From positions 1 through 50,297 of the forward strand of contig JAFWQJ010000055.1 in the NCBI GenBank assembly GCA_017545185.1: DNA of 50,297 nt. Reading direction: 5' to 3'. Each line of letters starts with the position of its first letter. The stretch's first letter is position 1. Under the pieces are notes generated by a model. The model was not told where the DNA came from. It was given only the letters and a program-made list of their open reading frames with translations, and searched no databases. The stretch is from Oscillospiraceae bacterium. Lineage in GTDB: Bacteria; Bacillota; Clostridia; Oscillospirales; Ruminococcaceae. The translations under genes and the position numbers were made by a program. Of the stretch, positions 32,024 to 50,297 are shown piece after piece.

Positions 32024-33784
32024 TCAGTTCAGCTCAATGCCGAAGCCGCCGACCAGATACCGGCGGAGCGTGACAACGTCCTTGAGGTCAAAGAAGCCGT
32101 CCTTGTTGACATCGGCTGCCGCTGCATTGAACGGCAGATCCCAGCCGCCGACCAGCTCCCGGCGCATTCTTACAACGTCCTTGAGATCAACGCTCTCGTC
32201 GCCGTTGACGTCGCCGAGCAGAACGGAGGGCACCGGCACGACCTCGACCGTGATCTGTGCCGCGTTGAAATCGGAATCGTAGACCGTGATGACCGTCCGG
32301 CCGACGCCGACTGCGGTGATAAGGCCGCTTGCGGATACGGCCGCGACCTTGTCATTGACAACAGAGTAGCTCAGATCCTCCCTGCTGGCTTCGATCTGGT
32401 ACTGCTCGCCGTTCACCAGCGTGATGCTCTCGGTGCTGAGCGTGACCGGCGGAAGCGTGGTCGTTGTGGTGGTGGTCGTCGTAGTAGTTGTTGTGGTGGT
32501 GGTCGTAGTCGTCGTTGTGGTGGTCGTTGTCGTCGTGGTCGTCGAAGTCGTCGTAGTCGTCGTTGTGGTTGTAGTTGTCGTGGTCGTCGTTGTTGTCGTG
32601 GTGGTGGTCGTCGTAGTCGTCGTAGTAGTCGTCGTTGTGGTGGTCGTTGTCGTTTCAGGCGGGAATGCATATCCGTATTTCTTGTAATTGTCGATTGCCG
32701 TGAGCATGGCATCCAGCGAGGCCGGACCGAACTTGCCGTCAACGCTCAGACCGCATTTGCTCTGGAATTCCCTGACGGCATCCTCTGTCTTCTGTCCGAA
32801 AATGCCGTCCGCTTCGCCGGCGTTCAGACCGCAGTAGGTGTTCAGGCAGTACTGCAGCCATCTGACATCGTCGCCGCGGGAGCTTCTCACCAGCAGGGAA
32901 GTCGGGCGGGGATACGGGGCGATATCGCCGTCGCCTGCCGGAACGGGGGGCGTGGACGTCTGATTATCCAGCGCCTTCTGGATCGCGTCGCGGGTCAGCG
33001 GGCCGACAATGCCGTCCGGATCCAGACCGTGTTCACCCTGGAACTGCTCGACCGCTGCCTTGGTCGCATTGCCGAATTTGCCGTCTGCGCCGGTCGAACC
33101 GACATTGTAGCCGAGCTTGAGCAGCGATTCCTGCAGCCAGACGACATCGCTGCCGGATGAGCCGACCTGCAGATAATCGCTGTTCTGCGAGCCGGACGAG
33201 TAGGACGATACCGGGTGACCGCCGCCGAAGGTGTCTACGCTGTAATTGCCGCTGCCGTTATTTCTCCAGTAGTACGGCTCCGTTCTGGTGTCAATATGCG
33301 TGAAGCCTGAGTAACAGCCGATGCCCCTGATGCCGATTGCTTCTGCATACCACGCAACCTCTTCCGGAGTGTGGTCTTTGACAACAATGTCTGCGGCCAT
33401 GCCCTTCATGTGATAGGAATTGCTTGCACCGCCGACTGCTGTGTTGCGCGCCTGTGTGCGGTAGCCGGAATTGATCGTGACCGAGGTGCCGAAATGATCC
33501 CGGATCTCCTGCAGCCGGTATACAAGCGCGCGGTCAATGAGAATGGTGTCGGAACCGCCCTCGCCGGTACATGCAAATTCCTTTACCTTGAAATTCTGGG
33601 ACACGTTCTTTTCACCGTCTCTGATGAGGGAATACGTGTCTACGACTTCTGCGTGTGCAACCGTGTCCGGCACAGGGTCTGTGCACAGAAAGGTGCCGAG
33701 GCACATGCAGAGTGCCAGAAATGCCGAAGCAAATTTGCGGAAGCGGGTACTGCGGAACTTTGTTCGGAACGAATGTGTGCTCAT
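32024..33784 (-). CDS. Secreted M15-like peptidase with peptidoglycan-binding repeats, poly-Thr linker, Ig-like domain and dockerin
   Basis: After a signal peptide (about residues 1-46), residues about 60-190 match the Peptidase_M15_3 type of D-Ala-D-Ala carboxypeptidase-like domain, with SGYRTQARNTAVGG, SYHMKGMAADIV and GFTHIDTR supplying the expected metal ligands. Two PG_binding_1 repeats follow (VVWLQESLLKLGYNVG and VRWLQYCLNTYCGLN). Then come a run of about 65 threonines broken by one serine, a BIG_2-like Ig domain and a C-terminal type I dockerin with two calcium loops (DVNGDESVDLKDVV and DVNKDGFFDLKDVV). The ATG at 33784 is preferred: GGAGG is 7 bases before it and touches the upstream ATG at 33790. 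Confidence 0.93.
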   Translation of the reverse strand: MSTHSFRTKFRSTRFRKFASAFLALCMCLGTFLCTDPVPDTVAHAEVVDTYSLIRDGEKNVSQNFKVKEFACTGEGGSDTILIDRALVYRLQEIRDHFGTSVTINSGYRTQARNTAVGGASNSYHMKGMAADIVVKDHTPEEVAWYAEAIGIRGIGCYSGFTHIDTRTEPYYWRNNGSGNYSVDTFGGGHPVSSYSSGSQNSDYLQVGSSGSDVVWLQESLLKLGYNVGSTGADGKFGNATKAAVEQFQGEHGLDPDGIVGPLTRDAIQKALDNQTSTPPVPAGDGDIAPYPRPTSLLVRSSRGDDVRWLQYCLNTYCGLNAGEADGIFGQKTEDAVREFQSKCGLSVDGKFGPASLDAMLTAIDNYKKYGYAFPPETTTTTTTTTTTTTTTTTTTTTTTTTTTTTTTTTTTTSTTTTTTTTTTTTTTTTTTTTTTTTTTTTTLPPVTLSTESITLVNGEQYQIEASREDLSYSVVNDKVAAVSASGLITAVGVGRTVITVYDSDFNAAQITVEVVPVPSVLLGDVNGDESVDLKDVVRMRRELVGGWDLPFNAAAADVNKDGFFDLKDVVTLRRYLVGGFGIELN

Positions 33785-33898
33785 TTTCATACCTCCGGTA
33801 TTGAATTTATATGGGGCTGCCGTGCTGCGGCATCCGCGGAACGCTCCGGCCGGGCGCCGGGAAAGCGTCTGCCCGCAAAATACCGATTATAACTATAT

Positions 33899-37665: not shown

Positions 37666-40600
37666 ATGAAAGGCAAAAAAATGACGGCAGCATTGCTTTC
37701 GGCCGTTCTGTTTGCGGGCGCGGCCCCGTTTTCAGCATCCGGCGGGAAAAGCTATGCGGCGGACACAAAGATCGACTGCTTTCCGCTCAGTGCAGTCACC
37801 ATGACGGACGCCTACAGCGTCAATGCGTTTGAGAAGGAGGTCGCATATCTGCTGTCGTTCGATTCCGAACGGCTGCTGGCGGGCTTCCGGGATAACGCGG
37901 GCCTCAACACGAACGGCGCAAAGCGCTATGACGGCTGGGAAAACTCGCTGATCGGCGGGCACACGGTCGGGCACTATATGACCGCGGTCGCGCAGGCGTA
38001 TGCGAATCCGCTTGCGACCGATGCGCAGAAGCAGAAGCTGCTGGACATGATGAAAACACTCGCGGACGGCATGAAGATCTGTCAGCAGAATTCCAAGGGC
38101 AAGCCGGGGTTTCTCTGGGCGGCGACGATTCCGAACCGGAACAATGTCGAGCAGCAGTTTGACAATCTCGAGGTCGGCAAGCTCAACATCATGACGGATG
38201 CATGGGTACCGTGGTATACGATGCACAAGCTGATCGCCGGTCTGATCGACATTTACAGATACACCGGATACGAGCCGGCAAAGGACGTCGCGTCCGGGCT
38301 CGGTGACTGGGTCTACAACCGCGGTTCCGGCTGGGACTGGGCACTCAACAATCATGTCCTCAATATCGAATACGGCGGCATGAATGACTGCCTCTACGAT
38401 CTCTATGCGATCACCGGAAAGGAAACGCACGCCGCTGCTGCGCACATGTTTGACCAGACGCGGCTGCATGACAAGGTGCTTGCGGGCGGACAGAACATTC
38501 TGGACGGCGAGCACGCCAACACGACCATTCCGAAATTCATCGGGGCACTGAAACGGTATCAGGTGCTGGACGGCGAAATGCTCGGCGGCGAAAAGGTTGA
38601 CGCCTCGCGTTATCTGCAGTATGCGGAGGCATTCTGGGATATGGTCACGAGCCACCACACTTACATCACCGGCGGCAACAGCGAATGGGAGCATTTCGGC
38701 AAGGACGATATCCTCGACGGTGAGCGCACGAACTGCAACTGCGAGACCTGCAACTCCTATAACATGCTCAAGCTGACCCGTGCGCTTTATTCCTGCACGG
38801 GCGATCCGAAATACATGGATTACTACGAGAACACCTACTACAACTCCATTCTGTCCTCGCAGAATCCCGAAAGCGGCATGACGACCTATTTCCAGCCGAT
38901 GGCGACCGGCTATTTCAAGGTCTACAGCTCGCCGTTCAACCACTTCTGGTGCTGCACGGGCTCCGGCATGGAGAATTTCACGAAGCTCGGCGATACCTTG
39001 TATATGCACAAGGACAGCACGCTCTATGTCAACATTTACCAGAGCTCCGTCCTGAACTGGGAGGAGCAGGGCGTCACGGTCACGCAGGAGAGCAATTTCC
39101 CGTCGGACGATACCGCCGTCTTTACGGTCAGCGGCTCCGGCGATCTGGAATTCCGCTTCCGTGAACCGGACTGGCGCGCAGACGATCTGAAGATCACGGT
39201 GAACGGAACGAAATATAACTATAAGACCGTGCAGGGCTATGCCGCTGTTTCCGGCAGCTTCAAGACCGGCGATAAGATCCGGGTCACGATCCCGATGGAG
39301 GTAAAGGCCTACGGTCTGCCGGACAATCCCAATGTCTATGCATTCAAGTACGGCCCCTGCGTTTTGAGTGCGGAGCTCGGTACGGCGGACATGAAGCAGG
39401 GCACGACCGGCATGGCGGTCTCGATCCCGGCCGATCCGATCTCGCCGTCCCAGAAGATCAACCTGAATGCAGCCAGCGGTACCGTCAATTCGTTCATGTT
39501 CCATATCAATGATTACCTTGTGAAGGATCCGGATTCGCTGAAATTTACGCTGAAAGGCACGGACGCGAATCTGACCTTCTCGCCGCACTATCTGCAGTAT
39601 CAGCAGCGCTACGGCATTTACTGGTATTTCTACAGTGCGGACAATGCCGTCGAGGAGGAGATCCCGCGGGCAAAGGTGACCGTCACCGATACCGTGCAGC
39701 CCGGCTACGGCCAGTACGAAAACGATGACCTTCATGCAATGGACGAGGCGGATTCTGTCAGCGTGACCAATGACAGCACCTACCGCTATGCGAAGCGGGG
39801 CGGACATTTCAGCTACCGAATGGCAGTCGATCCCGATGCGCCGATGACCGTTCTCAAGGTGACCTACCGCAAGGCCGACAACGGCAAACCGATCCGCGTC
39901 ACGGCAGGAACCCGCGTGCTGTTCGAGGGCGAACTGAACTACACCGGAAGCGCGGATACCTACGAGGTAAAGTACATCATCCCGAAGGATGTGCTTGCCG
40001 AAAATGTCCGTTCGATCCGGGCATACGAAACGGATTACGATGTCATCGACATCGGATTCTCTGCGGGACAGTTCTCCGCATCAGGTGCGGGCGAATCCGC
40101 AAAGGTCTGCGACTTCATCTATATGACAGCGGTCAAGCCGTATTACGAATACGACGCAGATACGGCATATTTCGTGGACTGCGGCGATCAGGACAGCAAA
40201 ACGCTCTCCGGCAGCGACCGGCTCGGCCTTTACAACTGCCTGACGGAGCAGCTCTACGGTGCGGACGGCGTGACCGGCATGGCATGGGGTCTGATCGACG
40301 ACGCGGAAGATCAGTACAACGGCAGCGGAAACAGCAAGGGGCTCTATACCGCGAACACATGGCCGGACGAGCGCAGCCCGCAGGACGGCCGCGACAAGAC
40401 CGCATCCTTCCGCTACACGAAGAATCAGTACGAGAATGACATCGCGCGGCATATCGACTACGGCTTCACGCTCCCGAACGGCACCTATACGGTCGAGACG
40501 GGCTTTGCAGACCCGTGGAGCTGCTCGGATCATCCGGCGGTGTACGCAAACTACGGCAGAAGCGATCAGCAGACTTTGACCGCCGGTCTCTCGCTGGCCG

Positions 40601-40917
40601 ACGCAAAGACCGTGACCGGCAGGGTGAAGGTCACGGACGGCACGCTGACGCTGAATTACCGCTCCGAGGACAGGGCGATCAACGTGACCTATATCAGAAT
40701 CATGTTTGACGAGACAGACCCGCTGCCCGCAGCCTCGCTGAAGGGCGATGTCAACAGGGACGGAAAGGTCAGCATCGCGGATGCGGTGCAGCTGCAGAAG
40801 TGGCTGCTGAAAACACCGGATACCGCGCTGCCCGATCCGCAGGCGGCGGATGTCAGCGGCGACGGCAGACTGACAGCGGCTGATCTTACCCTGCTGAAAC
40901 GTATGTTGCTGCAATAA
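37666..40917 (+). CDS. Secreted GH127 beta-L-arabinofuranosidase-like enzyme with C-terminal dockerin
   Basis: The 1083-residue protein has a signal peptide (about residues 1-32), a GH127 (DUF1680) catalytic region (about 38-640), beta-rich accessory domains and a type I dockerin (about 1025-1083, with DVNRDGKVSIADAV and DVSGDGRLTAADLT). Glu360 and Cys362 in CETCNSYNM, with Cys429 and Cys430 in FWCCTGSG, match the zinc ligands and catalytic cysteine of known GH127 enzymes in order and spacing. It should release L-arabinofuranose from plant glycans or hydroxyproline-rich proteins. The dockerin implies docking to a cohesin-bearing partner. Residues about 830-1020 look like a carbohydrate-binding module. 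It has its own promoter and terminator. Confidence 0.93.
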   Translation: MKGKKMTAALLSAVLFAGAAPFSASGGKSYAADTKIDCFPLSAVTMTDAYSVNAFEKEVAYLLSFDSERLLAGFRDNAGLNTNGAKRYDGWENSLIGGHTVGHYMTAVAQAYANPLATDAQKQKLLDMMKTLADGMKICQQNSKGKPGFLWAATIPNRNNVEQQFDNLEVGKLNIMTDAWVPWYTMHKLIAGLIDIYRYTGYEPAKDVASGLGDWVYNRGSGWDWALNNHVLNIEYGGMNDCLYDLYAITGKETHAAAAHMFDQTRLHDKVLAGGQNILDGEHANTTIPKFIGALKRYQVLDGEMLGGEKVDASRYLQYAEAFWDMVTSHHTYITGGNSEWEHFGKDDILDGERTNCNCETCNSYNMLKLTRALYSCTGDPKYMDYYENTYYNSILSSQNPESGMTTYFQPMATGYFKVYSSPFNHFWCCTGSGMENFTKLGDTLYMHKDSTLYVNIYQSSVLNWEEQGVTVTQESNFPSDDTAVFTVSGSGDLEFRFREPDWRADDLKITVNGTKYNYKTVQGYAAVSGSFKTGDKIRVTIPMEVKAYGLPDNPNVYAFKYGPCVLSAELGTADMKQGTTGMAVSIPADPISPSQKINLNAASGTVNSFMFHINDYLVKDPDSLKFTLKGTDANLTFSPHYLQYQQRYGIYWYFYSADNAVEEEIPRAKVTVTDTVQPGYGQYENDDLHAMDEADSVSVTNDSTYRYAKRGGHFSYRMAVDPDAPMTVLKVTYRKADNGKPIRVTAGTRVLFEGELNYTGSADTYEVKYIIPKDVLAENVRSIRAYETDYDVIDIGFSAGQFSASGAGESAKVCDFIYMTAVKPYYEYDADTAYFVDCGDQDSKTLSGSDRLGLYNCLTEQLYGADGVTGMAWGLIDDAEDQYNGSGNSKGLYTANTWPDERSPQDGRDKTASFRYTKNQYENDIARHIDYGFTLPNGTYTVETGFADPWSCSDHPAVYANYGRSDQQTLTAGLSLADAKTVTGRVKVTDGTLTLNYRSEDRAINVTYIRIMFDETDPLPAASLKGDVNRDGKVSIADAVQLQKWLLKTPDTALPDPQAADVSGDGRLTAADLTLLKRMLLQ

Positions 40918-40935: not shown

Positions 40936-40972
40936 ACCCGCCGGTTCACCTTCCGGCGGGGTTTGTTTTTTT
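40936..40972 (+). terminator. Terminator of the GH127 gene
   Basis: ACCCGCCGG and CCGGCGGGGT form the stem, followed by TTGTTTTTTT. Confidence 0.9.
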
Positions 40973-41024: not shown

Positions 41025-41054
41025 TTGACAACCGGAGCGGTTCTGTGATACAAT
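41025..41054 (+). promoter_or_regulatory. Promoter of the giant dockerin protein
   Basis: TTGACA, an 18-base spacer and TACAAT, with TGA before the -10 (extended -10). A CGGCGC/GCGCCG hairpin lies just upstream at 41001-41016. Confidence 0.8.
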
Positions 41055-41138: not shown

Positions 41139-44100
41139 ATGGAAACAATGCGAAACAAGCTGCTTGCCTGCGGGACTGCTGCGCTGATGCTGATGACCGC
41201 GCTGCCGCTGCAGACAGCACTTCCCGCATTCGCCGCGGAGGCCGAAGCCGCAAAGGTCGGTGACGTCAACGGCGACGGCAGAAAGGACAGTGCCGATCTC
41301 GATGCGCTGAAAGCACTGCTTGCGGCACGGCCGGATACGGTGATCGTCGAGGATGAGACGCTGGTGCCTTATGATGTGACGCAGGACGGCTTTGTCGATG
41401 CACGCGATACCTATGCGCTGTCGCAGTATGTCACCGGTGCCGCGAAGGAGTTTCCCGCGGAGCCGGGCAAACGGATCGACGAACAGATCACGATGGCGCT
41501 GGAGGGCGGGACATGCTTCCCGGGCGATGAGGTTCAGCTCACGCTGTCATTCGTGGACTGGACAAAGGATATCGCGGCTTATGATATCACACTCGGCTTT
41601 GATCCGGTGCTGGAGCTGCAGAAGGTCGATTTCATTGCGGACGACTGTCAGTATGTCGGCGGGCGCAGAACGGTCAAGCTGACGGGTCTGCATAAAGAAG
41701 ACCCGCTGCACCGCGGCGATTTCGCCGTTCTGACCTTTAAGACGCCGAAGGAATATGACGGCGACTATACGGTCGCGGTCGAAAGCGCAAACATTTTCCG
41801 CTCGGACTATAACCATTATACGCCGGTCAGAACGTCTGCAGCGGTGACCGTGTACCCGCTCTGCGAGCCGGTCGCGGTGGAAACGGCGGGCGTCGGCAGC
41901 AGGTCGGTCTCCCTGACATGGGATATGCCGTTTACCGATCAGCCGGTCACCGGCTACCGTGTGTACCGCGGCGGCGAAATGATCGCGGAAACGACGGAGC
42001 TCCGCTGTACGGATAAGGAGCTGGAGCCGGATACGGAATATGTTTATACCGTTTCCGCCGTGACGGCGAGCGGCGCAGAGACTGCGGAATCCGTGCCGGT
42101 GACGGTCAGGACGGCCGCGCCGAAGATCCGCAGCGCCGGATTCCCCGCGGAGACGGTCTCCGATGCGGACAGCGACCTGACCGTCAGACTGGAGCAGGCT
42201 GCGCTGCTTTCGGCGCTGAAGCTCGATATCACAGCACCGGACGGCAGCACGCTGACCGAATCCGCCGATCTGGGCGGCGAGGCGATGAGCACGGTCAGCT
42301 GGCACTGGGATGTCAGCAAGCTGGCAGACGGAACCTATACGGTCGGCATCACCGTGACGGATCCCGACGGCGCTTCCGACACCGCGGAGACTGCGGTGCA
42401 GATCGTGAACGCGCCGCTGAAGCCGGTGACGCTCAGAGGCACCGCCGGCGACAGAACCGCTGTCCTCACATGGGACATGGCGGATGAAGCCGCCGTGACC
42501 GGCTATGCCGTCTACCGCCTGAACGATGACGGCAGGACATGGGAGAAAATCGCAGAGGTCGGCGGGCGCAATACGCTGACCTATACCGACAAGCAGCTCA
42601 AGGACGGAAAGCAGTATACATACGCCGTCACGAGCCGCGACGGAAACGGGCAGGAGAGCCCGAAAAGCGACAGCGTCAAAATCGTGCCGGATGCGGACGA
42701 CACTCCGCCGGAGATCACGCTGTTCAGGGCGGCAGGCGGTCAGCGCGTTTCCGGGGAGCTCACCGTTTCGGTCGCCGCGTCCGATGACAACGGCGTCGCG
42801 TCCGTGCGCTGCGAGATCTCCGCGGATGAGGGCAGGACATGGAAAACCGTCGGTGAGGCGGAAGGCGATTCCGGCAGATGGATCATCAATACCGCGGATT
42901 ATGCGGACGGCGTTTACCGTCTCCGCGCAATGGCTGCGGACAATGACAAAAACGAGAGCAGCGGCAGCAGCGTCGCTGAACTGGCCTTTGACAATACTGC
43001 GCCGGAGCAGGTCCGGCATGTCCGTGCGGTCAGCGTGACCGAAAAGAACGCTGCGATCGCATGGGACAATGTTTCCGATGAGGACTTTTCGTATTTTACG
43101 GCGATCATCTCGGACAGCACCAAAACATGGGAGCAGAAAGCCGACAAGACGCTCGGCATCAATCTGGCCGACCTGACGCCGGATACGCTTTATACGGTCA
43201 CGGTCTATGCCGTGGACGCTGCCGGCAATGCCGGTGTACCCTCGGAGCCGTTCAGCTTTATTTCCACGAGCGACACCACGCCGCCGACGGTTTCGTCTCT
43301 CGGCTTGTCCTCGGAATATGCATCCGCGAACGCTGCCCTGACCGTCAAGGTGACGGCGAAGGATCAGTCGCCGGTCACATACTGCTATGTGCAGTATTCG
43401 CAGGATCAGAAGGAATGGAAGGAGCTGCGGGGTACCGGCGCGGAGCCCAGCCTCTATATCAGCGACAGAACGCTGACGGAGGGCCCGCTGTATATCCGCG
43501 CGTATGCGGAGGATAAGTACGGCAACAAGGGCGACCCTGAGCAGGCACAGATCCGCACGGTCACCGTGGACAACGAGGCACCGGCTGCGCCGGAAAAGCT
43601 GACCGCCGAGACCGCAGTCAGCAGCAATCTTCTCACATGGTCGAAGTCCGCTTCCGAGGACGCGATCTATTACCGCGTGGAGCGCGCGGTCGGCGGGGAG
43701 TACACCGGAAGCAAGACCGTCGCGGACAAATGCCGCGTGCTCAGCTTTGAGGATACGGATGTCGAGGCGGACGGGACGTATTATTACCGCGTGTATGCGG
43801 TTGACCGTGCGGGCAATCTCAGCCCTGCAGCCTCCTCCGGAAAGGTCAAGCGCGTGCCCGATACCGAAAAGCCGCAGATCCTCGAATGCGGTCTGTCCGT
43901 GCAGCTGGCGGAGCCGACGGTCTGCTCGGCGCACCGCACGCTGCAGATCGTGACTTCGGACAATACCAAGCTGAAGGCTGTCACGGCTGCATACCGCTGC
44001 AGCGAAAGCGCTGAATGGACGGCGCTCGCGGCCGAGGAGCAGCAGGCGAACAGAATGCGCACCGAGCTGGTCGTGCGCACCGAACTGCCGGAGAGTGTGC

Positions 44101-47100
44101 TGAAGGAGGAAAGCGTCACCGTGCAGGTCACGGCGGAGGACGCCGCCGGCAACAAGGCCGTGCAGGAATACCGATTCCGTGTGGATGACAGCCGCGCGGA
44201 GATCAGAAACGCGGCGGCAAAGCTTGATGAGAAGCAGGTCACGGTCAGCTGGGAATGCCCGGATACTGCCGGCGTCAGCGCATTCTATCTCTACCGCAGG
44301 ATCGGTACGGCGGGCAGGGAATACTGCCTCTCGCAGGCCGTCCCGCAGCAGGGTCAGACGGAATATTCCCTTGCCGATCCGAACCTTTCGGCAGGCGGCA
44401 GGATGATCTACCGCATTCAGGCGGAGATGAAAAACGGCAATACCGTTTCCGTGACGCTGGATCCGATCGACGTACAGGCGGTTCCGAAGGCGTCGCTGGA
44501 ATACACCCCCTCGCAGGTCGTCGGTGCGGAATACAGATATGACGCGAGCGGCTCGCAGAATGCAGCCGATATCGTCAGTGTTGCGATCAGCTTCGGCGAT
44601 GCGACGGAGCAGATCATCAAAAAGTCCGCCGAGGACGCAGTTTTTACCCATAAATACGAAAGAACCGGTGATTATCAGGTCACGCTGACGGTCACCAATG
44701 CATCCGGCATGTCCGACACCAAAACCGTGACGGTCACGGTTGCGGAGAAGTCCGTCATGGCGAATGTCAATGTGCATGTCAGAAAGATGGACGGCTCGGC
44801 GGCGTCCTATGCGACGGTCTTTGCCGACCCCGGGACCGACCGTCAGGTCAGATATCAGGCCGATGCGGACGGCAATGTGACGGTCGAATGCACGGCGGGC
44901 GGACATGAGTTCGGCGTCTTTGCGGACGGCTGCCTGCCCGGGACAAAATACTGCTCGCTTGCGCCGGATTCGTCTGCGGAGCTGAATTTCACGCTCGTAC
45001 AGGACGAGCTGGTCAGCGCGGATTTTGAGGTCAGCCGCATGACGCTCGCGGAGATCAAGGCGGCGGGAATTGATGTGGAGGATCCCGAAAACTGCCAGAT
45101 GGTCATGATCGACGTTTCGCTGTCCTATTCGATCACCACGACCGTTACCGATCATGTGAAGGTCTACTATGACAGCGGCAGCGGCCGGACATGGCTCGGC
45201 GGAGGCTCCGGCACCGGCGGCTCCGGCAGTTCGGATTATCACTACGAGATCCAGACCGTTTCCCGCGATGTCAGCACGGTCGTCCTGCTGCGCGTGCCTG
45301 CAAAGGCGCAGTTCCTCAAGGAATTTTTCAAGGTCGATATGATCGTGATGAACAATGCGGATCCGACATTCTCGCTGACGGACTGCGTTGCATCGCTCAA
45401 TCTGCCGGGCGGACTTTCCGTTGCGGAGGATGCCCCGGCATCCCGTCCGCGCGTGACGGAGCTCGGCACGATCCGCGGCGGACAGCAGCAGACGGTCAGC
45501 TGGATCGTCCGCGGCGACCGCAGCGGCACCTACAATTTCAGCGCGGACTTCAGCGGTACGCTGCAGCCGTTCAATGAGCATATCTCCATGAACTTTGCCG
45601 CCGAACAGCCGATCACGGTCGAGGGGCAGGAGGCTGCGTCGGTCACCGTGAACTTTGACCCGGTCATCCGCAAGAAGAACATGTTTGTGGAGATGCTGGT
45701 CGAGAACAATACCGCGCACGATCTCTATGAGCTTTCCACGGAGATCGGCAAGGCCATTGCAGATACCGTCGGTACGGCAGCCGACGGCGAGCCGAGGGCG
45801 GAGATCTACCAGACCCGCTTTACCGGCACGGACGGCATCCTGCAGGTCATTGAAAAGACGGATCAGATCACCGCACTGCATCCCGGCGAGAAGTTCAGTG
45901 TCGTCTACCGGCTGAAAAATGTGGTCGCACAGGACATTCGGGGCACGTACAAGGACGTTCAGAGTAGCATCTCCGCGACCTCGTCCGCCCGGAACACGGT
46001 CGTGCAGATTCAGCCTGTCCGGATCACGGATATCAACGATCCGGGCTACGGCATCAATCTGGATCCGGATACGCAGTTCATTCTGATCTGCGCGAACAAG
46101 AACGGCGTGCCGATCGCGAATGCAAAGGTCGAGCTCGGCAAGTTTGTGAACAACGGCAAGTCGGTGATCGCGTCCGGCACCACGGATGCATCCGGCAGAC
46201 TGGTCGTTCCGCGTGCATGTGATGAGGAACGGCTCTATGTGGAGGCACATGCGGAGGGCTACCGGCAGTATTACAACAGCCGCTATGAGATCCCGAAGAA
46301 GGCTTCCGATTATTACGATATCCTCACGATGAGCGGTGACCTCAGCGGCGCGGATTATTCCCTGCGTTATGTGGCGCTTTCCGGCACAGACCGCCGCAGT
46401 CTGCTGACGCAGAAATATACGGTCAACACCTATGAAAGCGAGACCTTCTCGATCATCGGTGCTTCCAATGACCCCGCCGTGAAGTACGAGCTGATCCAGA
46501 GAGGCGAGACCCGTCCGGTGAAATCGACGGCAGGCGACAGCGGCACCTTTGCGTTCATGGAGCTGACGCCCTCGATGTTCACCCCGGGGAAGGCGGTCTT
46601 TATCCGCATGACGACAGAGACCGGCGATACCGTGGAGAAGCTGATCGGTCTGGACGTGATTGCGGTGAACGAGGAAGAACCGCTGAGCAATCCGGATATT
46701 GCGGAGTTTGCGGATGTGCTGATTGATTACGTGAAATCAAATGACTGGTGCTGCGCGATCCCGATGGAATGGATGCCGGACTTCATAGAAGACGGCCTGC
46801 AGGATCTGGTGCTCGATTTCGCGGGTGAGCTGAAAGCTGTTACGGATTCCGATGCGCTGAACTCGATCGGCATCACGCACGACCTGAGAAATGATAACGA
46901 CAAAAAAACGGGCGTGGATCAGTCACGCAATATCGGCGTATCTCTGACCCGCGATGACCAGTATATCAAGGTGAATGTTGAGTTTACGCTCGGCAAGACG
47001 CTCTATTTCGGCAAAAAGGATCTCCGCGGCGTTCCGAGCCAGGATCTCACCATTTACATGCATTTCACTGCAACCGCCGTGTATAATCACATCAACTGCG

Positions 47101-49739
47101 AATGGACAAGCCTTGAGCCGACGTTCAAGGCACATCTGGTCGGCACCGGCAGACTGTTCCATTACGAGAAGCCGGTCGCGGGCTGGTTCCTCGATGTGTT
47201 CTACAAAGCAGAGGTCACCATTCCGATCGTGAATAAAATCTCCATCATCAATTCCGCTGACAGTGTTTCGCTGCGTTATGACGATGTCTATGTTCCGTGG
47301 AACGGAAAGATCGGCGTGCGCATCGACGCGGGTCTGAAGGCTGAGGTCTTCGATCTGGAGATTGCAAAGGCGTATATACGGGGAACATCCGATTTTATAC
47401 TCAAAAAGAGGCAGGAGCATTCCGGTTATCCGTTTGACTCGGTCAGCATTGACGGCGACGCAAGACTGCGCATTGATGTCGGGGGATGCAATTTCCTGGA
47501 TCTCGATCTGATCAGCGGCTCAACGCTGCTCTGGGAGAGCCCGAAACCGGGCAGCAGTCCGAGACCGCCGGTTCTCACGGCAGACAGTCTCACCACGGCG
47601 GACGGCACACCTGTTTCCGAGGCGGTGAAGGATGCTTCCCGCTATCAGCCGTATACCGCGGATATGATCCCGCAGGCCGGCGTTTGGCATGCACAGCTCG
47701 GCGGCGGACTCACGGAGCTGCAGTCCGGCATTTCCGGCGGCTCTGCACCGGGGATCGTCTCCGACGGCACGAACACCGTGATGGTCTGGATCGTCAAGGA
47801 CATTGCACGCGGCGTGAACAATGCGTCTTATGCAGTCTGGTCGCGCTATGACAGCAGCGCAAGGACATGGTCCGAGCCGAAGCCTGTGGATGACAACGGA
47901 AATGCAGATACGACGCCGGTGCTGTTTGCCGGTGCAGACGGCATCCGCCTTGCATATCTCGAATCCGCAGCTGTTTATGCGGACGACAGCGCGCCTTCTC
48001 TGGATGAATATGTCGGACAGCTGGTCGCAAAGACCGCAAAATTTGACGCGGAGGCAGATGCCTTCACAGATTTCCGCACTGCAGAAGTCAACGCGGACGG
48101 CGGCTTTGCTTCCGTACCGGCGTTTGCACAGGCAGCGGACGGCACGACCTATCTGTTCCGGAGCGCCCATACGGGCAGCAGCCTGTTCAGCGATGACGGC
48201 ACCGCACGCATTCTCTGCGCAAAGGAGACTGCGGACGGCTGGGAGACACCGGCTGTTCTGGCAGAGAACCCCGACGGGATCTCCGCGCCGGTCTGCGGAC
48301 AGAACGCAGCGGGCGAACCGGTCTTTGCATATACGGTCAGCGAGCCGGCAGAGGACAATGCCCGTGCGCTGTATCTTGCAGGGCTTTCCGGTGAGCCGGT
48401 GAAGCTTGCGTCCGGCGATATCGCGTCCCCGCGGTTCGCTGAGATCCCCGGAAAGAATGCATCCGGTCTGGTCTGGTATCAGGACGGCAGCATTTACGCC
48501 TCCGCCGATCTGACCGAAGCAGAGCTGCTCTGCAGCGGTGAGGACTGCGGCGTATCCGACCGCTTTGTCACTGCGGGCGACCGCATCCTGTTCCTCTCCA
48601 ACTCCGCGGGCACATCCGCGCTGTACAGCACACGGTATGATGCGGAATCCGGCAGCTTTACCGTACCGGTCTGCGTCGAATCCGGCGAACACCTCTATTA
48701 CGAGACCCTTTCCGTTGCAAACGCAGGCGGCGAAACGCTCTATGCAATGGCGCGCACCGATGACAGTGCGGACATGAAGCGTCCGGACACTTCGCTGGTC
48801 GGCGGCGTGCTCGGTGAGACGGTCGATCTCTGCATCGCGGAAACCGCTTATACCTACAGCGATGCGAAGCCCGGCCGGGCATTTCCGATCGCGGTCGCTG
48901 TCCGGAACGACGGCACCGCCGCGGTCGATGCAGTCACGCTGCGCATTCTGGACGGCACCGGCAAGGCGGTCGCGTCCGAGACAAAGGAGATCCGGATCCA
49001 GTCCGGACACGGCGCACCGGTCCAGTTCGCACCGGTCCTGCCCGCAGCGCTCGCACCTGCGGAATACACGGTTTCCGTCAGTGCGGCGGATACCGACAAG
49101 ACCCCTGACAACAATACCGCCGTGCTCGATCTGACGATGACCGATCTCGCGGTCGATGCCGATCTTTCCTACATCGGCGACAGCACGTTCGTGACGATTC
49201 TTGCCTCCAACCTGAGCGGGGTGCCCGCTTCTGCGGTCATCACGATCCGCCCGCAGCGTGCGGAGGAGGAGACAGTCACGCTGTTCTCCGATCCGATCGC
49301 GCCGCATTCCTCTGCGTACTGGCGCCTCAATGCAGAAGACCTGCTCGGTGACCTGTATGCGGATACGGTCGAGATCACCGTTTCGGCAGATACGGAGGAC
49401 GGTGACGAAACCAATAACACCGCGCTGGCCTTTATCGCAAAGAGCGGCATGGATCCGTATAAGACCGGCGACATCAATCTGGACGGCAAGGTCGAGCTGG
49501 AGGACGTCACGCTTGCGCTGAAATGCTATACTATGCAGGTCGCGAACCGGAAGGATACCGGCCTGAATGACATGCAGCAGAATGCGGCAGACGTCAACCG
49601 GGACGGTGCGGTTGATGTGATCGACGTCATGACGATCCTGAAATTCTATGTGTTCACGATCGCAGGAAAGGCACCGGCAAGCTTTCCGGAATTTTTAGAA
49701 AACGAACAAAACGGAGGTGCGAATCATGAATCTGAATAA
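41139..49739 (+). CDS. Giant secreted multidomain protein with dockerins at both ends and a cohesin-like module
   Basis: The 2866-residue protein has a signal peptide (about 1-33). A dockerin-like pair follows at about 40-100 (GDVNGDGRKDSADLDAL and YDVTQDGFVDARDTYAL). Residues about 113-240 have a cohesin-like beta pattern (CFPGDEVQLTLSFV, IAAYDITLGFDPVLEL, GDFAVLTFKT). Several fibronectin III and Ig-like domains fill about 245-1100, then a PKD domain (about 1117-1203) and a carboxypeptidase-regulatory-like domain (about 1207-1288). About 1290-2150 is a large region I cannot assign. A propeller-like region (about 2177-2550), CARDB-like repeats (about 2560-2764) and a clear type I dockerin (about 2774-2847) close it. 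AAGGAG precedes the ATG. No catalytic motif is seen, so a structural or binding role is likely. Confidence 0.93.
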   Translation: METMRNKLLACGTAALMLMTALPLQTALPAFAAEAEAAKVGDVNGDGRKDSADLDALKALLAARPDTVIVEDETLVPYDVTQDGFVDARDTYALSQYVTGAAKEFPAEPGKRIDEQITMALEGGTCFPGDEVQLTLSFVDWTKDIAAYDITLGFDPVLELQKVDFIADDCQYVGGRRTVKLTGLHKEDPLHRGDFAVLTFKTPKEYDGDYTVAVESANIFRSDYNHYTPVRTSAAVTVYPLCEPVAVETAGVGSRSVSLTWDMPFTDQPVTGYRVYRGGEMIAETTELRCTDKELEPDTEYVYTVSAVTASGAETAESVPVTVRTAAPKIRSAGFPAETVSDADSDLTVRLEQAALLSALKLDITAPDGSTLTESADLGGEAMSTVSWHWDVSKLADGTYTVGITVTDPDGASDTAETAVQIVNAPLKPVTLRGTAGDRTAVLTWDMADEAAVTGYAVYRLNDDGRTWEKIAEVGGRNTLTYTDKQLKDGKQYTYAVTSRDGNGQESPKSDSVKIVPDADDTPPEITLFRAAGGQRVSGELTVSVAASDDNGVASVRCEISADEGRTWKTVGEAEGDSGRWIINTADYADGVYRLRAMAADNDKNESSGSSVAELAFDNTAPEQVRHVRAVSVTEKNAAIAWDNVSDEDFSYFTAIISDSTKTWEQKADKTLGINLADLTPDTLYTVTVYAVDAAGNAGVPSEPFSFISTSDTTPPTVSSLGLSSEYASANAALTVKVTAKDQSPVTYCYVQYSQDQKEWKELRGTGAEPSLYISDRTLTEGPLYIRAYAEDKYGNKGDPEQAQIRTVTVDNEAPAAPEKLTAETAVSSNLLTWSKSASEDAIYYRVERAVGGEYTGSKTVADKCRVLSFEDTDVEADGTYYYRVYAVDRAGNLSPAASSGKVKRVPDTEKPQILECGLSVQLAEPTVCSAHRTLQIVTSDNTKLKAVTAAYRCSESAEWTALAAEEQQANRMRTELVVRTELPESVLKEESVTVQVTAEDAAGNKAVQEYRFRVDDSRAEIRNAAAKLDEKQVTVSWECPDTAGVSAFYLYRRIGTAGREYCLSQAVPQQGQTEYSLADPNLSAGGRMIYRIQAEMKNGNTVSVTLDPIDVQAVPKASLEYTPSQVVGAEYRYDASGSQNAADIVSVAISFGDATEQIIKKSAEDAVFTHKYERTGDYQVTLTVTNASGMSDTKTVTVTVAEKSVMANVNVHVRKMDGSAASYATVFADPGTDRQVRYQADADGNVTVECTAGGHEFGVFADGCLPGTKYCSLAPDSSAELNFTLVQDELVSADFEVSRMTLAEIKAAGIDVEDPENCQMVMIDVSLSYSITTTVTDHVKVYYDSGSGRTWLGGGSGTGGSGSSDYHYEIQTVSRDVSTVVLLRVPAKAQFLKEFFKVDMIVMNNADPTFSLTDCVASLNLPGGLSVAEDAPASRPRVTELGTIRGGQQQTVSWIVRGDRSGTYNFSADFSGTLQPFNEHISMNFAAEQPITVEGQEAASVTVNFDPVIRKKNMFVEMLVENNTAHDLYELSTEIGKAIADTVGTAADGEPRAEIYQTRFTGTDGILQVIEKTDQITALHPGEKFSVVYRLKNVVAQDIRGTYKDVQSSISATSSARNTVVQIQPVRITDINDPGYGINLDPDTQFILICANKNGVPIANAKVELGKFVNNGKSVIASGTTDASGRLVVPRACDEERLYVEAHAEGYRQYYNSRYEIPKKASDYYDILTMSGDLSGADYSLRYVALSGTDRRSLLTQKYTVNTYESETFSIIGASNDPAVKYELIQRGETRPVKSTAGDSGTFAFMELTPSMFTPGKAVFIRMTTETGDTVEKLIGLDVIAVNEEEPLSNPDIAEFADVLIDYVKSNDWCCAIPMEWMPDFIEDGLQDLVLDFAGELKAVTDSDALNSIGITHDLRNDNDKKTGVDQSRNIGVSLTRDDQYIKVNVEFTLGKTLYFGKKDLRGVPSQDLTIYMHFTATAVYNHINCEWTSLEPTFKAHLVGTGRLFHYEKPVAGWFLDVFYKAEVTIPIVNKISIINSADSVSLRYDDVYVPWNGKIGVRIDAGLKAEVFDLEIAKAYIRGTSDFILKKRQEHSGYPFDSVSIDGDARLRIDVGGCNFLDLDLISGSTLLWESPKPGSSPRPPVLTADSLTTADGTPVSEAVKDASRYQPYTADMIPQAGVWHAQLGGGLTELQSGISGGSAPGIVSDGTNTVMVWIVKDIARGVNNASYAVWSRYDSSARTWSEPKPVDDNGNADTTPVLFAGADGIRLAYLESAAVYADDSAPSLDEYVGQLVAKTAKFDAEADAFTDFRTAEVNADGGFASVPAFAQAADGTTYLFRSAHTGSSLFSDDGTARILCAKETADGWETPAVLAENPDGISAPVCGQNAAGEPVFAYTVSEPAEDNARALYLAGLSGEPVKLASGDIASPRFAEIPGKNASGLVWYQDGSIYASADLTEAELLCSGEDCGVSDRFVTAGDRILFLSNSAGTSALYSTRYDAESGSFTVPVCVESGEHLYYETLSVANAGGETLYAMARTDDSADMKRPDTSLVGGVLGETVDLCIAETAYTYSDAKPGRAFPIAVAVRNDGTAAVDAVTLRILDGTGKAVASETKEIRIQSGHGAPVQFAPVLPAALAPAEYTVSVSAADTDKTPDNNTAVLDLTMTDLAVDADLSYIGDSTFVTILASNLSGVPASAVITIRPQRAEEETVTLFSDPIAPHSSAYWRLNAEDLLGDLYADTVEITVSADTEDGDETNNTALAFIAKSGMDPYKTGDINLDGKVELEDVTLALKCYTMQVANRKDTGLNDMQQNAADVNRDGAVDVIDVMTILKFYVFTIAGKAPASFPEFLENEQNGGANHESE

Positions 49740-50297
49740 TCCCGGATCCGCACGGAATCTCCGCCGCTTCATCGCAGCCTGCACGGCTGCGGTGATGACG
49801 GCAGCGGCACTGCACGCATCTGCGGCTGATCCTGTCTCCGTGCAGAGAATGCCGGAGCCGGCAGTGATCCGCGTTTCGGCTGATCCTGCAGGCTTCACGG
49901 AAGCAGCAGTGACCGCCGCAAAGCCGATAACGACAACGGCGGCAAAGACCACCGCAAAGCCGGTCGTGACGACGGCTGCTAAGACCACCGCAAAGCCGAT
50001 AACGACAACGGCGGCAAAGACCACCGCAAAGCCGGTCATGACAACGGCGGCAAAGACTACCGCAAAGCCGGTCATGACAACGGCTGCTAAGACCACCGCA
50101 AAGCCGATAACGACAACGGCGGCAAAGACCACCGCAAAGCCGGTCACGACGACGGCTGCTAAGACCACCGCAAAGCCGGTCGTGACGACGGCGGCAAAGA
50201 CTACCGCAAAGCCGGTCACGACGACGGCGGCAAAGACTACCGCAAAGCCGGTCACGACGACGGCGGCAAAGACTACCGCAAAGCCGGTCACGACAAC
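49726..50297 (+). CDS. Secreted Thr/Ala/Lys/Pro repeat protein, 3' end beyond window
   Basis: The reading frame starts with ATG at 49726, 8 bases after GGAGG, and overlaps the end of the giant gene by 14 bases, so translation is coupled. It is open to the window edge. Residues about 1-33 form a signal peptide (RRFIAACTAAVMTAAALHASA). After a short segment come more than ten 12-residue repeats of the form AKPVTTTAAKTT. Such Pro/Thr/Lys repeats act as extended, wall-spanning linkers in secreted proteins of this group. The functional domain must lie beyond the window. Confidence 0.85.
   Translation, partial: MNLNNPGSARNLRRFIAACTAAVMTAAALHASAADPVSVQRMPEPAVIRVSADPAGFTEAAVTAAKPITTTAAKTTAKPVVTTAAKTTAKPITTTAAKTTAKPVMTTAAKTTAKPVMTTAAKTTAKPITTTAAKTTAKPVTTTAAKTTAKPVVTTAAKTTAKPVTTTAAKTTAKPVTTTAAKTTAKPVTT
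49918..50297 (+). repeat. 36-bp tandem repeat, more than ten units
   Basis: Units of the form GCAAAGCCGGTCACGACGAC plus GGCGGCAAAGACTACC are repeated head to tail to the window end. Two variants alternate, one with GTC (Val) and one with ATA (Ile) at the fourth codon. The third-base pattern also varies, yet units are far more alike than in the poly-Thr linker at 32.5 kb, which suggests recent expansion. Confidence 0.9.

Follow-up and report, generated by a model that had tools for sequence, protein, structure and literature searches.

The window analysed here, a stretch of 50,297 nucleotides from an Oscillospiraceae bacterium with relatives among the fibre degraders of gut and rumen (contig JAFWQJ010000055.1, C54 in our numbering), carries near its right-hand end one very long open reading frame on the forward strand. 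It encodes 2866 residues, and both this length and its coordinates agree with those given in the initial annotation, which was made from the DNA alone (Table 1). Pfam analysis of the whole protein, referred to below as the giant protein, returned dockerins near both ends (Dockerin_1, E 5.2e-14, two stretches) together with fn3, bacterial Ig, PKD and CarboxypepD_reg-like modules. A search for promoter-like sites found one, against 0.4 expected in shuffled sequences, and a terminator-like hairpin lies upstream of it; judging from this order in the DNA, the transcription unit of the giant gene and the partner gene that follows it may begin there.

Table 1. Features of the giant gene and its borders, with positions in the window and residues of the giant protein.
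Feature	Residues	Position	Strand	Basis
Terminator-like hairpin, upstream of the promoter-like site		40937-40960		
Promoter-like site, TTGACA-18-TACAAT		41025..41054	+	11/12 consensus bases; consensus match only
Gene for secreted double-dockerin/cohesin protein	1-2866	41139..49739	+	Open reading frame; 13 full-length copies including the window copy
Signal peptide	~1-33	41139..41237	+	Judged by eye
N-terminal dockerin	41-98	41259..41432	+	38.8 bits
Divergent cohesin homologue (very probable)	113-240	41475..41858	+	hhalign against own-genome cohesins; Pfam hits in orthologues; solved-structure matches
Alternating fn3 and bacterial Ig modules, presumed stalk	246-1117	41874..44489	+	Pfam, ten pieces
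PKD domain		44508..44741	+	PKD_4, E 1e-14
CarboxypepD_reg-like beta-sandwich	1210-1286	44766..44996	+	E 3.4e-6, 27.7 bits, under the 32.3 cut-off
Conserved block	~1291-1540	45009..45758	+	Parts recur in other large proteins
Second CarboxypepD_reg/MG3-like domain	~1652-1720	46092..46298	+	E 6e-4, under cut-off
Hypervariable amphipathic beta-rich region	1851-2150	46689..47588	+	Pairwise identity; strand windows
Sialidase/Kelch-like beta-propeller, tentative	2165-2560	47631..48818	+	Weak matches
CARDB-like Ig domain and further segment	2560-2765	48816..49433	+	CARDB E 5.7e-4, under cut-off; second piece matchless
C-terminal dockerin, class C	2777-2833	49467..49637	+	33.8 bits
GGAGGT, likely ribosome-binding site of the partner gene, in the last codons of the giant gene		49713..49718	+	
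Partner gene, 5' part; truncated at the end of the contig		49726..50297	+	190 residues; signal peptide by eye; TTAKPV repeats

Within the presumed stalk, fn3 scored above its Pfam cut-off in pieces 1, 3 and 5 and below it in piece 7, and Big_9, Big_7 and HYR scored above theirs in pieces 2, 4 and 8; pieces 6 and 9 had no clear Pfam match. The absence of a catalytic motif, remarked on in the initial annotation, is borne out by the family searches. Neither a catalytic family nor an SLH module is among the Pfam matches listed (the best 25 of 32 families at E≤1), and each of the nine NCBIfam models that matched was under its cut-off. An exoglucanase and other models were far under: that for the exoglucanase, CbhB, gave 59.6 bits on the fn3 part at residues 223-347, against a cut-off of 1950, and these sub-cut-off matches fall on fn3-type or other Ig-like modules. 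The Pfam and NCBIfam output likewise contained no CBM and no glycoside hydrolase domain.

Two other genes on the contig also encode dockerin proteins. One, directly upstream at 37666-40917 (+), specifies an enzyme of the GH127 beta-L-arabinofuranosidase type whose dockerin is of class B. The other, at 32024-33790 on the reverse strand, encodes a Peptidase M15 protein in which peptidoglycan-binding domains are combined with a poly-Thr linker and a dockerin of class D, so that an enzyme of the cell wall bears a cellulosomal plug.

The terminal dockerins and the module behind the first

Dockerins had been read at each end of the chain from their paired calcium loops, and both were recovered above the cut-off used in the genome scan, 22.9 bits (type I, PF00404), with two calcium-loop repeats read. 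The further remark that the two differ in sequence also held. We clustered 119 dockerins of the same genome, out of 123 in the regions fetched, which are themselves a subset of the genome's, and with a cut-off of our own choosing obtained groups of 41, 19, 18 and 6 members plus many small ones. The C-terminal dockerin belongs to the group of 18, which we call class C, and the N-terminal dockerin is a singleton among the 119 sampled, with a best similarity of 0.30. Of the six dockerins found on cohesin-bearing chains, four are class C, compared with 13 of the remaining 111 (Fisher p 0.004, leaving the window protein aside); the figure is four of seven (p 0.008) once a seventh chain with a sub-cut-off cohesin is included.

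The first calcium loop of the N-terminal dockerin has Asp/Asn/Asp/Asp at positions 1, 3, 5 and 12 in all 13 full-length copies of the protein. Loop 2 is near-canonical in the nine copies from the window's genus and degenerate in the four from other genera, where position 3 is Y and, in three of them, position 1 is N. This finding suggests that the N-terminal dockerin may have partly changed role.

The initial annotation had also placed a cohesin-like domain after the first dockerin. The Pfam Cohesin model did not match the window copy (among the best 25 of 32 families listed at E≤1), and Pfam found no cohesin on the contig at E≤10. When the orthologous modules were compared with 21 cohesins of the same genome by hhalign, the result was 98.1% (E 1.2e-13) with 13 modules, 96.4% (E 1.4e-9) with eight and 96.4% (E 1e-9) with nine. 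The nine-module comparison was accompanied by a control in which 17 further segments of the giant protein reached 19.4% at most, and on this ground we reject the reading of the module as an ordinary Ig-like domain. The Pfam Cohesin cut-off was passed by two of the six orthologue N-termini scanned (L075, 27.9 bits; L138, 27.3 bits); L137 fell narrowly under it (23.8 bits), and L135, L136 and L079 gave no match. An HMM of the own-genome cohesins detected the module in four of 12 orthologues (L075, L135, L136 and L137) and missed it in eight, which indicates that the copy is divergent.

Profile searches against solved structures gave a similar picture. With eight modules there were three matches (E 0.05-0.17), each bearing the name "putative cellulosomal scaffoldin". 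With 13 modules, the top seven of 15 matches were cellulosomal scaffoldins or cohesins by molecule name (E 0.0015-0.26), and such entries came to nine in total; the remaining matches, at E 0.29-0.92, comprised two cohesins and six unrelated proteins (a pesticin receptor and five cyclodextrin glycosyltransferases). A single sequence of the module returned no match. We regard residues 113-240 as very probably a divergent cohesin homologue, so that the earlier placement stands. The module has a (D/E)W motif before its third strand that is absent from the 21 aligned own-genome cohesins, and a search for a second copy in the genome returned the module itself only.

In all 13 copies the N-terminal dockerin and the cohesin homologue are adjacent, joined by a short linker. 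This close placement would suit two modules that bind each other, and the pair might be an intramolecular cap or an X-module-like stabiliser, with no partner outside the chain, in a protein simply docked at its C-terminus. The degenerate loop 2 in four of the 13 copies, the lack of close relatives of the window's N-terminal dockerin in the genome sample and the motif absent from the 21 cohesins fit this explanation as well. We nevertheless consider it rather unlikely, because loop 1 is kept in every copy and the nine copies of the genus have a near-canonical loop 2, and because N-terminal dockerins of Ruminococcus flavefaciens are described as active (PMC5301203). With a cohesin homologue and a dockerin on one chain that is secreted (by eye) and has no recognised catalytic domain, the protein has the sequence arrangement of an adaptor scaffoldin.

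The cellulosome-like assembly supposed in the initial annotation has potential partners in the genome. It holds 24 cohesin matches at E≤1e-3, 18 of them above the Pfam cut-off, and at least 149 dockerins above the cut-off (150 of 306 candidates scored), and in two multi-cohesin scaffoldins an HMM of the own-genome cohesins counts 10 and 6 cohesins within the portions examined. Seven contigs (C8, C26, C43, C54, C55, C64 and C87) end in Thr/Ala/Pro-type repeat linkers of cellulosome-like genes, so some of the scaffoldins may be truncated or split. On contig C64, the protein at L067:1221-2222 has a single cohesin and, by eye, a QTGE/transmembrane/KRRK tail, and it adjoins a fragment ending in a class C-like dockerin; from these features it is a candidate ScaE-like anchoring scaffoldin. 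A GH25 lysozyme-type protein on contig C34 (L121:1304-2845) has an N-terminal dockerin-like loop, seen by eye, followed by a cohesin, an order similar to that in the giant protein.

The middle of the chain

The initial annotation had described about 860 residues in the middle of the protein as matching nothing, which proved correct only in part. Residues ~1653-1721 resemble CarboxypepD_reg under the cut-off, and residues ~1293-1540 recur in proteins of the same and related genomes (for example G000:C65, G002:C19 and G006:C62), with no clear Pfam family found for the block at ~1291-1540. One protein of 1889 residues in the same genome (L062:1711-7380, contig C65) has a block in common with residues 1293-1533 of the giant protein, and similar proteins occur in related genomes. 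The stretch that stands out is residues 1851-2150, which are without a Pfam family in the window copy and hypervariable. Pfam matches to FctA, XFP_C and OMP_b-brl within residues 1735-2180 were set aside as stray, each occurring in one member.

We measured pairwise identity between all pairs of the 13 copies in 50-residue intervals. The mean in 1851-2150 was 18.8%, with 22.2% in the highest interval, as against 37.3% outside 1701-2150 (48 intervals, lowest 25.7%, sd 6.8). Three intervals at 1701-1850, which belong to neither set, were intermediate (23.7-27.3%). Between the window copy and its nearest orthologue, identity was 11-26% in 1851-2150 and mostly 34-82% elsewhere, but 16% at 1701-1750. 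The alignment is poor in 1851-2150, so identity there is only roughly measured. Across residues 1735-2180 of nine copies, 11 of 532 alignment columns are invariant. Amphipathic-strand windows made up 25% of the region, compared with 6% in shuffled sequences, the highest value among seven segments at a threshold that we set ourselves. The fast change could reflect either relaxed constraint or diversifying selection, and the identity data fit both. In the following propeller-like part, Sialidase A was matched at E 0.27-0.33, Kelch in two of nine members and BNR in one of nine (best E 0.004); neither Kelch nor BNR was found in residues 2165-2560 of the window copy.

Many known dockerin proteins are enzymes, and most of the ~1270 residues between 1291 and 2560 are without a firm family, so that an unrecognised enzyme domain carried by the dockerins might be sought there. 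We consider this very unlikely, since no catalytic family appears among the listed Pfam matches or reaches its NCBIfam cut-off, and since so few columns are invariant in residues 1735-2180.

The partner gene and the distribution of the pair

The contig ends within a second gene, whose product is represented by a fragment of 190 residues to which Pfam assigns no family at E≤1e-5. In all 12 other loci (eight in the genus, four in other genera), the giant gene is followed on the same strand by a gene for a leucine-rich repeat (LRR) protein of the LRR_5/BspA type (PF13306), above the Pfam cut-off in each. These LRR proteins are ~1460 to 1940 residues long where complete (the L077 copy is cut), have signal peptides as judged by eye, and contain no dockerin or cohesin by HMM. 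The giant gene and the LRR gene are almost certainly a conserved gene pair. In the genome of the window, contig C26 starts in the same repeats as the partner fragment and also encodes an LRR homologue (50% identity to its L074 counterpart), and we infer that C54 and C26 are neighbouring contigs. Continuation of the partner into contig C43, which has a cohesin and a dockerin, was rejected because the other loci have an LRR gene and because C26 shares the repeat and the LRR homologue.

The GGAGGT in the window encodes Gly-Gly near the C-terminus of the giant protein; GGAGG lies within the last codons of the giant gene in 11 of 13 copies, and in the same 11 (10 of 12 without the window) the likely start of the partner, as chosen by us, overlaps the giant gene. 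The two g36 loci, L137 and L138, have a short gap in place of the overlap. The embedded GGAGG may account for the Gly-Gly near the C-terminus, yet L137 and L138 have Gly-Gly without GGAGG. No cohesin besides that in the giant gene was found in the flanks of L074-L081 and L135-L138 (up to 10 kb, some shorter), and beyond dockerin matches the GH127 gene had no relative in the flanking DNA examined at the 12 other loci.

The 13 full-length copies, including that of the window, come from three genera. Within the window's genus, nine copies occur in eight of 30 genomes, one of which, G006, has two diverged copies of the complete two-gene unit (L080 and L081). Named sources of the orthologues are metagenome-assembled genomes from water-buffalo rumen, goat omasum, pig, horse and sheep, plus Tb.RUG.135 and Firm_04. 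Among 396 genomes of the family, at least nine have a match and at least six a full-length one, four of these six in two other genera; the scan scored the four best first-look candidates per genome, and its counts are lower bounds. Matches in G284, G376 and G427, which are partial or lack the cohesin part, were excluded from the orthologue count. In G284, adjacent proteins of 2565 and 2313 residues (L139:3764-18402) lie near cohesin and dockerin genes and are possibly a distant version of the two-gene unit; the match to the 2565-residue protein covers the cohesin/fn3/Ig part only.

All six family genomes with a full-length orthologue have at least five cohesin matches at E≤1e-6, a level reached by 29 of the 396, or 32 at most, given that ten candidates were scored per genome and up to three more could reach five. 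The hypergeometric p of 9e-8 to 2e-7 for this co-occurrence ignores kinship. By their labels, the orthologue scan and the cohesin scan appear to cover an identical set of 396 genomes. The test is informative at family level only, since all 30 genomes of the window's genus have cohesins. The presence of the unit in only eight of these 30 suggests that it is dispensable and accessory, with the qualification that several of the genomes are incomplete.

Proposed role and relation to known systems

Comparison with R. flavefaciens gives the dockerin classes a possible meaning. There, group 4 dockerins bind the wall-anchored ScaE, and their carriers include scaffoldins, CttA, peptidases and LRR proteins (PMC5301203, PMC2930009). 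Most dockerins of LRR parent proteins bound no cohesin tested (PMC5301203), so some dockerins in such systems may lack a known socket, and 118 dockerin proteins are reported with regions of unknown function (PMC2930009).

Our preferred reading, drawn from the sequence and given slightly less than even weight, is that the giant protein is a secreted, non-catalytic adaptor or adhesin linked to the cellulosome and made together with a secreted LRR protein. The first step is visible in the chain itself, with dockerins at both ends and the cohesin homologue after the N-terminal one. Through its class C dockerin the chain would attach to the cellulosome at the surface-anchoring or adaptor layer, class C being taken as an anchoring class by analogy with group 4 dockerins and ScaE only. 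The fn3/Ig/PKD stack would act as a stiff spacer that keeps the N-terminal dockerin-cohesin pair off the cell, where the pair could take on another dockerin or cohesin partner, or cap itself. Ligand recognition would fall to the beta-rich hypervariable region together with the propeller-like domain, and the LRR protein, with its overlapping start and no dockerin or cohesin, would act with the giant protein, in the simplest case by binding it or serving as a co-adhesin. Of these elements, a bridge between two complexes is plausible, docking at the surface is a matter on which we are evenly divided, and ligand binding by the middle of the chain is more tentative.

Recognition or attachment might also have nothing to do with fibre. 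The targets could be host glycoproteins, microbes or phage, with the cellulosome sockets borrowed and the hypervariability driven by antagonistic coevolution, and the sharp local hypervariability, the LRR partner and the absence of a recognised CBM or glycoside hydrolase domain are consistent with such a role. However, the fast change could also be relaxed constraint and the ligand is putative only, and the dockerin enzyme directly upstream in the window belongs to GH127, although this family was not seen in the flanks of the 12 other loci. We therefore consider a role unrelated to fibre unlikely.

For the adaptor or adhesin that we prefer, there are partial precedents in the literature. ScaC-type and other monovalent adaptor scaffoldins (PMC11557425) carry one cohesin and one dockerin on a single secreted chain, as the giant protein does; the latter differs in its two dockerins of different classes, in the cohesin behind the N-terminal one, in the ~2500 residues of Ig, PKD, variable and propeller-like modules and in its LRR neighbour. 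ScaK of Acetivibrio cellulolyticus (PMC3413522) likewise combines two dockerins with cohesins, two in its case, and has an SLH module, in contrast to the Pfam matches listed for the giant protein. CttA of R. flavefaciens is described as a docked cellulose-binding adhesin (PMC5301203, PMC2930009), and shares with the giant protein the lack of a recognised catalytic domain, a C-terminal dockerin class common to scaffoldins and a proposed role in adhesion. Unlike CttA, the giant protein has no recognised CBM or X-module, has its own cohesin and second dockerin, and has no sca scaffoldin cluster around its gene (contig C54 and the flanks seen of the 12 loci). In the double-dockerin proteins of Clostridium thermocellum (PMC12484212), which also have two dockerins per chain, the pair is in direct contact, either by itself or accompanied by a protease domain, whereas the dockerins of the giant protein stand at opposite ends of a chain that also has a cohesin.

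Cohesin-plus-dockerin adaptors and two-dockerin chains are already known (PMC11557425, PMC3413522, PMC12484212). Our literature search, which left most subscription papers and supplements outside its reach, found no description of the present arrangement or of the LRR pairing. What goes beyond the initial annotation is the LRR neighbour, the orthologous family, the hypervariable region and the class of the C-terminal dockerin.

For the lineage, a module unseen by Pfam suggests that Pfam counts of cohesins are too low, which agrees with the statement in PMC11557425 that ruminococcal cohesins evade sequence profiles. One dockerin group of unknown function gains a defined architecture, a divergent profile-evading cohesin, a constant partner gene and a region that evolves fast, and with architecture, partner and variable region defined, its role becomes testable. 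In its broadest form, which we regard as improbable, the interpretation is of a hitherto undescribed surface system in which cellulosomal ruminococci of gut and rumen pair two proteins, namely a docked giant stalk, with a plug and a socket at its far end and a hypervariable recognition region, and an LRR co-receptor. If true, such a system would turn the attachment chemistry of the cellulosome to the recognition of other cells, hosts or rivals, and not to the breakdown of fibre.
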